DNA from: a virus
Direction: 5' to 3' (one strand)
Virus record (IMG/VR): IMGVR_UViG_3300030673_000004
Location: 62,001-126,000 of that record
Length of the DNA stretch: 64,000 nt
Under the pieces are notes generated by a model that ran no database searches, was not told the DNA's origin, and saw nothing but the letters and a program-made list of their open reading frames with translations. Made by a program: the position numbers and the translations under genes. Within the stretch, counting starts at the first letter, position 1. Each line of letters opens with the position of its first letter. Positions 28,570 to 29,532 of this stretch are shown in pieces.

Positions 28570-29532
28570 ATCAGCACAGAGCAAGAGCATCGACAGCGTC
28601 ACAAGACAATATCGGTAATCAAGCGAAGTGTCATTCATCTTTGACAGTTTTGGTGGGCGCATTGCCCAAGTGAGTGTTAAGCAATCATCTTCATTGGGAG
28701 GTTGGCCTAAAAGCAGCCATCCTATAATGAGTGACGAGCAGAACCGAACAGTAAAGGCTTTAGAGGAAACATCCTGTGACTGGGAGAGCTCACATGTCTT
28801 GAAAGACAGCACGTGGGTGTTGACACCGAATATGAAGCAGGGTGCTAAAGTTCTTGGGGAAGGTTGATAGGAAAGTCGCATGGGAGTCGCGTCCCTGGCA
28901 ACGTCAAAATGGCTAAGACTGAAACTATCTTTTAATGTGAAGTCCATCATAGCAATATGTTCACCTTAGTGACAGCCTGTCTATTCCGATGCACTCGGAC
29001 GGCAGAGAGACTTGATTTGTGGTTGGTTTGTCTCTTTCTGTCGGACTCGGTCAATCAATCTTGTGTAGTCTTTGGCGTATAAGCACACCAATGGAAGTGA
29101 TCGTAGATTACAGTACTTGTGAAACTAAACGCTCGGGTGGTAGCCAACCCACAGAGGCGCTAAGGGGTACAATGGAAAGTTGTACCTGTCGATAGGGACC
29201 TAAGCTACCCCTACAGGGAAATGAGTCGGGTGATCCGAATGATACCTTGTACAGCCGTAGTAATACGGTCTTCTCGGAACTTGCGTGAAATTAAACCACA
29301 CGGGAAGAGAAGCGTAAGTGCGCTTTGAAATAAGCTAGACAATAAGTACTGTTTTTTACTGCAGGCTCACGCTTGCGTGAGTCTGAAACGCCATCTCAGT
29401 GAGAGTGCTGATGGCATTATGCATGATAGAATGCTGGTATTGCATAACTTGTACCTTAGCCAACCTAGGGAATCAAGTCCAGAATCGTAGCGTTGGGACT
29501 CAACCGAGTCGGTGAAATTCCTGTCGGTTATT
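28570..29532 (+). ncRNA. Very large structured RNA upstream of the tRNA array (GOLLD/ROOL-like in size and setting)
   Basis: About 960 nt between a clear promoter and the first tRNA, without a plausible gene. Many helices are visible: TCCGA/TCGGA near 28,990, AGAGAGAC with GTCTCTTT near 29,005-29,037, GGTACAA/TTGTACC near 29,166, CCGTA-GTAA-TACGG (a GNRA loop) near 29,256, AAGCG/CGCTT near 29,310, CTCACG-CTTG-CGTGAG at 29,364, GCCATC/GATGGC near 29,391, TTATGCA/TGCATAA near 29,418 and GACTC/GAGTC near 29,498. Phage-borne GOLLD and ROOL RNAs have this size and tRNA-adjacent position. I cannot confirm either consensus by eye. Confidence 0.65.

Follow-up and report, generated by a model that had tools for sequence, protein, structure and literature searches.

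GOLLD, ROOL and OLE are RNAs of phages or mobile elements, the first two often found near tRNA islands, and mimicry of tRNAs and of regulators is already known among viral RNAs. In the annotation of the T4 record, the small stable phage RNAs RNA C and RNA D lie beside tRNA genes. There are also precedents for the principle of ribosomal protein capture by RNA: according to an excerpt of PMC12286853, OLE is proposed to sequester the ribosomal protein RpsU, and an excerpt of PMC10931766 describes ribosomal protein operon leaders that mimic rRNA, for example the uL1 site in the L11-L1 operon.

We analyzed a 64,000-nucleotide stretch of DNA from a giant phage (the window), positions 62001-126000 of a virus record of 375,537 bases. 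Its sequence indicates that positions 28684-29101 almost certainly form a closed domain mimicking the L11-binding or GTPase-associated centre (GAC) of 23S rRNA. Like GOLLD and ROOL, the GAC mimic is carried by phages or mobile elements and in the window lies beside tRNAs; unlike these and OLE, it is built on an rRNA domain and most copies are far smaller. The initial annotation had considered a divergent GOLLD or ROOL, an assignment contradicted by the Rfam covariance models of GOLLD, ROOL and OLE, which gave no match in the stretch at gathering level or even at E ≤ 10. Its alternative, a new class, agrees with our data: the RNA is structured, phage-borne, non-coding and adjacent to tRNAs, and the 5′ module lies outside Rfam 15. 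As in the ribosomal protein operon leaders, an RNA imitates a ribosomal protein site of rRNA; in contrast to them, it is a stand-alone phage RNA with no downstream ribosomal protein gene, and the uL11 rather than the uL1 site is imitated. T4 RNA C and RNA D share the location beside tRNA genes, but were rejected as relatives, as the GAC core and 3′ block gave only chance-level fuzzy matches there and our covariance model R1 (see below) gave none.

The interval ahead of the tRNA array

The window carries 34 tRNA genes at 29533-55819 (ARAGORN) and a tmRNA gene at 34160-34515 (Rfam search). The interval in front of them, 28570-29532, had been described as a single RNA of about 960 nt. It is instead a tandem of at least two RNA modules, which are found apart in other phages, and not one RNA family. 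Its features and flanks are:

28535..28563, plus strand: putative sigma-70-like promoter for the non-coding transcript (consensus match only)
28566..28683, plus strand: 5′ leader between promoter and GAC domain (fold z = -1.51)
28684..29101, plus strand: probable GAC-mimic RNA, whole domain (R1 model matches, both blocks, closing helix also in the MFE)
28684..28697, plus strand: closing helix, 5′ strand, H42 equivalent (outer helix covaries, 86 copies)
28699..28723, plus strand: H43 equivalent, thiostrepton-loop hairpin, with 28709 as A1067 (match to 23S 1055-1088)
28724..28732, plus strand: junction and H44 5′ strand, 1082-1090 (covarying tertiary pair)
28733..29074, plus strand: variable insert between the 1090 and 1091 equivalents (insertion helix covaries in the family)
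29075..29090, plus strand: H44 loop and 3′ strand, 1091-1106 equivalents, with 29079 as A1095 (3′ block)
29088..29101, plus strand: closing helix, 3′ strand (outer helix covaries, 86 copies)
29159..29246, plus strand: RAGATH-33-like RNA module (Rfam RAGATH-33, RF03102, 31.0 bits, E 0.00036)
29247..29532, plus strand: rest of the 3′ region up to tRNA-Asn, no identified family (strong folding)
29533..29607, plus strand: tRNA-Asn(gtt), first of the array (ARAGORN, Rfam)

The approximately 1 kb without a plausible gene, followed directly by the first tRNA, was confirmed. Across 28570-29532, coding scores lie between -0.32 and -0.68 bits per codon in all six frames, compared with -0.02 to +0.55 for the 23 window ORFs taken as genes; a strong protein-coding signal, named by the initial annotation as what would speak against it, was looked for here and not found. 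Two ORFs, one of 166 aa on the minus strand (28450-28950, -0.14 bits per codon) and one of 79 aa on the plus strand (-0.03), were rejected as genes because both fall below all 23 (lowest -0.02). The promoter proposed at 28,535 was recovered as a sigma-70-like match (TTGACA-17-TATCTT, 10/12 consensus positions, plus strand), which is weak evidence alone, the scan having returned 7 promoter-like sites where 2.6 were expected. No terminator-like site was listed by a scan of 28100-29660, and similarity of the leader to 23S or 16S rRNA was no better than that of shuffles.

The claim of stable folding is weak in its initial form. The whole interval has a fold z-score of -2.08 on the plus and -1.72 on the minus strand (20 shuffles each), while with 60 shuffles each the 5′ domain (28682-29103) reaches +0.73, no stabler than its own shuffles, 29104-29532 reaches -3.75 and three coding stretches give -1.56, -3.24 and -1.13. 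As coding stretches go down to -3.24, fold energy fails to tell RNA from genes here. The claim that the RNA is structured nevertheless stands, and rests on comparison: 86 diverged copies of the 5′ domain show compensatory changes.

Downstream of the GAC mimic, the match to RAGATH-33 spans the full model length and includes the signature GAAATGAGTCGGGNNANCCGAATGATAC (29218-29245), yet its 31.0 bits fall short of the gathering score of 120.4. The signature occurs in three other viral contigs and as a variant in a fourth, L164. A relaxed RAGATH-33-like pattern returned 17 stretches, convincing only in these four phage contigs (L129, L130, L131 and L164); the other 13 look coding or accidental and were rejected. 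L130, L131 and L164 contain tRNAs, and further conserved sequence was seen downstream of the signature in all four. Within two mismatches, the GAC core is absent from the whole records of these four RAGATH-33-like carriers, so the GAC RNA and the RAGATH-33-like RNA are separate modules. RAGATH-33 is a different RNA from the GAC mimic, and the RAGATH-33-like RNA represents a second under-described phage RNA. The two perhaps share one primary transcript, and the 3′ terminus of the upstream RNA could be generated by RNase P cleavage at tRNA-Asn. Within the remaining 3′ region, 29330-29532 folds with z = -1.98.

Other features of the window were noted in passing. A likely separate small RNA lies at 28271-28495. 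It has a promoter-like site at 28271-28298 and a fold z of -4.23 for 28302-28495; near 28462-28495, inspection by eye shows a G+C-rich hairpin (one mismatch) running into a T-run, which is absent from the output of the terminator scan. A CUUG-tetraloop hairpin, CTCACGCTTGCGTGAG, occurs twice, 1150 nt apart, once before the promoter (28216-28234) and once within the 3′ region (29366-29384). Inside the tRNA array, a TROVE-domain (Ro60-like) protein is encoded at 32072-33478 (Pfam PF05731, 45.1 bits); two YrlA (Y RNA) matches near it, 33626-33732 and 31128-31198, are below threshold (37.7 and 34.8 bits, gathering 69), and protein and matches are likely a phage Ro60/Y-RNA pair. Neither the Ro60-like nor the capsid-like ORF of the window gave relatives in a search of the viral contigs. 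Two tRNA-like stretches were not called by ARAGORN: 29650-29712, with a GAA anticodon-like loop and a T-arm by eye, and 45233-45318, a sub-threshold tRNA-Sec-like match (32.4 of 47 bits). The translation of 227-2863 reads by eye as a topoisomerase/gyrase-A-like ORF with an apparent intein (Hint) insert.

Structure and covariation of the GAC mimic

Using blastn against phage records we obtained mainly a match of about 45 nt, window 28694-28738, in unrelated phages, and a 23S rRNA gene was matched by the same piece as well. When aligned to E. coli rrnB, the 5′ piece falls on 23S 1055-1088 with a score of 38, whereas 60 shuffles reached at most 31. Comparison of the matched phages revealed another constant block further downstream, TTTGGCGTANNAGCRCACYA, the counterpart of the H44 loop of 23S rRNA, with an exact match at 29071-29090. 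Between them, the 5′ and 3′ blocks make up H42, H43, the junction and H44; helices are named and numbered after the E. coli sequence. The closing helix pairs at 13 of 14 positions (counted by eye), two of them G-U or U-G, and the tertiary pair 1082-1086 is A-U at 28724/28728. The window insert of about 340 nt interrupts H44 at E. coli 1090/1091; an insertion helix, in which 28733-28735 pair with 29068-29070, closes it, and the constant UUUG linker stands at its end. There is one such copy in the whole record of the window.

Elsewhere in the interval, nothing from the rest of 23S rRNA around the GAC or from 16S rRNA rose above shuffles. In the 3′ part, GCCGTAGTAATACGGTC as a mimic of 23S H69 or 16S 521-538 and GAAATTCCTGTCGGTTA as a mimic of 23S H71 were dropped because shuffles score equally; the best scores of this part were equalled by 22/60 (23S) and 6/60 (16S) shuffles.

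For covariation, 125 members were reduced to 86 by dropping 39 that were at least 85% identical to a kept one over the ends. In H42, pair 1054-1105 is formed in 86/86 copies (G-C 65, A-U 21). In H43, 1058-1080 pairs in 79/86 (G-C 30, A-U 22, U-A 18) and 1057-1081 in 74/86. Four positions of the outer helix pair in 75, 77, 81 and 72 of the 86, with all four Watson-Crick types, and the insertion helix pairs in 77, 73, 68 and 49. Each of these pairs exceeds all 500 shuffles, which ignore relatedness, so that the variety of pair types weighs more than the counts. The pair 1082-1086, a tertiary pair of the GAC, is a standard pair in 74/86 copies (U-A 40, A-U 16, C-G 15) compared with at most 55 in 500 shuffles. 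U1060/A1088 is present in 72 of the 73 copies with a regular junction, and the H43 hairpin carries the thiostrepton loop, as expected of a GAC fold. Pair 1062-1076 is marginal (its count is reached by 3/500 shuffles) and 1065-1073 does not stand out from shuffles (88/500). The near-invariant pairs 1053-1106, 1055-1104, 1059-1079, 1063-1075, 1087-1102, 1091-1100 and 1092-1099 were not counted, and H44-loop invariance in the 3′-pattern sample proves nothing, as the search pattern fixes most of those letters. The A1067 equivalent is A in 77/86 copies, less fixed than neighbouring fold residues; that of A1095 is A in 32/35 of the 5′-anchored sample.

We built the covariance model R1 from 18 phage-type copies, 17 from phage or virus contigs and one (L155) from a bacterial bin. 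Across these whole copies, 95.7% of cells are paired under the named structure (73.3% when shuffled), and its covariation is 0.617, versus 0.153 shuffled and at most 0.187 when slid. In the window R1 matches 28687-28834 (48.7 bits) and 28982-29099 (18.9 bits), the halves being split by the long insert. It also finds E. coli 23S 1045-1115 (49.8 bits, E 1.2e-15, E-values being rough) and another 23S record (38.1 bits).

The likeness to the 23S GAC (H42-H44, E. coli 1051-1108) thus extends over the H43 sequence, the junction, 1082-1086, U1060/A1088, the H44 loop and the closing helix. In contrast to the 23S GAC, the phage RNA stands alone, and its H44 is split at 1090/1091 by a variable arm and a constant UUUR linker. 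It further differs in having A instead of U at 1101 and an outer helix whose sequence is not rRNA-like. This helix keeps its pairing while its sequence is free to vary; therefore the uL10 side is not kept. An uninterrupted H44 hairpin (1087-1102) is absent, with the insert at the 1090/1091 equivalents in 118/126 places, those having both blocks. The insertion point is the same in all copies, and around the constant GAC core the inserts of the 86 copies range from 29 to 367 nt (the shortest, 29-32 nt, in L091 and L110). They are unlike each other and bear lineage-specific motifs such as GGCACCCC...GGTAAGGC.

Extent and genomic setting of the family

The GAC-mimic RNA occurs in more than 120 further loci, mostly IMG/VR phages. 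A scan of viral contigs for the 3′ block gave at least 120 stretches, and for 118 of 126 occurrences (collected loci plus window) the 5′ core lies no more than 1500 nt upstream. Six of the eight lacking it have at most 204 nt of upstream sequence, and the remaining two, L013 and L105, are full members by R1 (88.0 and 82.4 bits). Starting instead from the 5′ half, an independent scan gave 36 loci, all 36 with the 3′ half (35 by the strict expression, L079 by the first pattern). Relatives of the 5′ module measure about 80-420 nt and have the rRNA domain as their basis.

In a bacterial and archaeal collection with one genome per species, the 3′ block was found in 32 stretches, seven of them with the 5′ core. 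R1 gives these seven bacterial contigs 90.2-118.7 bits (L155 was in the training set and L158 is close to it); their titles include Clostridiaceae bacterium strain 9, Flintibacter muris, Thioploca sp. and two deltaproteobacteria. The 3′ pattern alone was rejected as proof of membership, 25/32 stretches having no 5′ core; 16 of these searched with R1 gave at best 24.1 bits versus 44.7-99.3 for members in the same search. As the 3′ pattern gives chance matches, the 5′ core is required for membership.

R1 confirmed 12/12 named phages examined (Astolliot, BF, pf16, 4_4572, Kaldavass, XacN1, GAP32, Pd_22F, CBB, UNO-G1W1, Milchi and XbC2), in whose records the RNA either lacks annotation or coincides in part with small hypothetical ORFs. 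Both plasmids examined, among 456 matched plasmid records of which many others may be plain 23S matches, are members as well: Aromatoleum aromaticum EbN1 plasmid 1 (L214, 71.2 bits) and a Pseudomonas sp. FeN3W plasmid (L215, 76.6 bits). The RNA is thus not limited to recognised phages. On 20 member loci, Rfam 15 at gathering level found tRNA and tmRNA only and no GAC-mimic family. We found no earlier report of a phage GAC RNA in open-licence PMC papers, and a report elsewhere is possible. As far as these literature and Rfam searches reach, a free-standing phage RNA reproducing a functional centre of 23S rRNA, in one fixed design across unrelated phages, is an undescribed kind.

About half of the members (63/125) lie within 500 nt of a tRNA, compared with 683/2500 random points in the same loci, and 63/63 are on the strand of that tRNA; 46/125 are in loci without any tRNA. 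A T-run follows the RNA in 20/86 copies, versus 3/86 upstream and 100/860 shuffled, and some copies may end in their own terminator. Among 121 longer ORFs hand-picked from 273 neighbours, no shared protein family was found (at most 2/121 by Pfam and 3/121 by PHROGs), as would be expected if the partner is encoded by the host. These 121 include one RtcB and one T4-type RNA ligase. In XacN1 (L207) the RNA lies beside a 2′-5′ RNA ligase gene, and in L156 beside an ORF that reads by eye like an RNA-repair kinase/ligase.

Possible roles in the infected cell

uL11 recognises the GAC fold, the minimal L11-binding domain. Because the conserved core is the part recognised by uL11, while the helix on the uL10 side keeps pairing only, we infer that the RNA binds host uL11. 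The looser conservation of A1067 relative to the fold residues agrees with selection acting more on the fold and on binding of uL11 than on contact with factors. According to an excerpt of PMC7058999, uL11 is essential for RelA activation by starved ribosomal complexes in E. coli. As a free-standing GAC copy with H44 interrupted by a variable, lineage-specific arm, the phage RNA would act in trans; in abundance it would be a decoy that captures newly made or exchanging uL11 and leaves uL11-poor ribosomes. On starved complexes such ribosomes would be poor activators of RelA, and their handling of translation factors would differ, so that the infected cell would be held in a relaxed, translation-permissive state. 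The variable arm may tune stability, partner or host. In the window, the GAC RNA would head a likely common non-coding transcript with the RAGATH-33-like RNA and the tRNAs.

In its broad form, that phages of many hosts deploy a trans-acting GAC copy which captures uL11 or visiting factors and thereby rewires translation and the stringent response, we give this reading a probability of roughly 45%. The entire chain, with uL11 capture and a relaxed stringent response as the main benefit, has slightly less than an even chance, and titration of host uL11 is a possible but somewhat doubtful step. The 46 members in loci without tRNA count against this explanation. The effects of titration may be small, since free uL11 may be scarce and E. 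coli tolerates the loss of uL11. The H44 stem broken by the insert and the A for U at 1101 could also change the binding of uL11 or of factors.

Phage tRNAs can replace tRNAs cut by host nucleases, and the company of same-strand tRNAs, together with some RNA-repair neighbours (the 2′-5′ RNA ligase of XacN1, RtcB and the T4-type RNA ligase), would suit a false GAC that draws off a nuclease, modifying enzyme or peptide of the host directed at this region of 23S rRNA. However, we know of no widespread defence aimed at the GAC, the repair genes are single cases among 121 neighbours, and the remaining rRNA neighbourhood is not imitated, so that such a decoy appears unlikely. Somewhat less probable still is a scaffold in which the uL11/GAC fold is only a grip and the insert does the work, in a phage RNP or a GOLLD/ROOL-like RNA assembly: inserts of up to 367 nt with lineage-specific motifs would agree with it, but those of only 29-32 nt imply that a large working insert is not general.

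The RNA might alternatively engage translational GTPases or RelA through the loops of A1067 and A1095 and slow or redirect host translation, as the predominance of A at both equivalents could suggest. Both positions, however, vary more than the fold residues do, conservation is lacking on the bL12/uL10 side and isolated GAC RNA is a weak GTPase partner, which leaves this a slim prospect. The clear sequence similarity to 23S rRNA is also what passive rRNA debris, or a functionless intron or intervening-sequence relic of a 23S gene, would show. Compensatory changes across 86 diverged copies argue strongly against debris, and a single insertion point with mutually unlike inserts down to 29 nt does not indicate a single intron family; the chance of such an origin is very small.

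If the preferred reading, a trans-acting GAC copy, is true, a widespread viral mimic of an rRNA functional centre lies unannotated in or near tRNA arrays and accounts for part of the unexplained non-coding space there. It offers a natural variant panel for one of the best-studied rRNA folds. The presence of the RNA in many unrelated phages suggests tampering with host protein synthesis and indicates that phages may act directly on uL11 and the GTPase centre. If RelA activation is blunted, the RNA would provide a route for phage control of the host stringent response.
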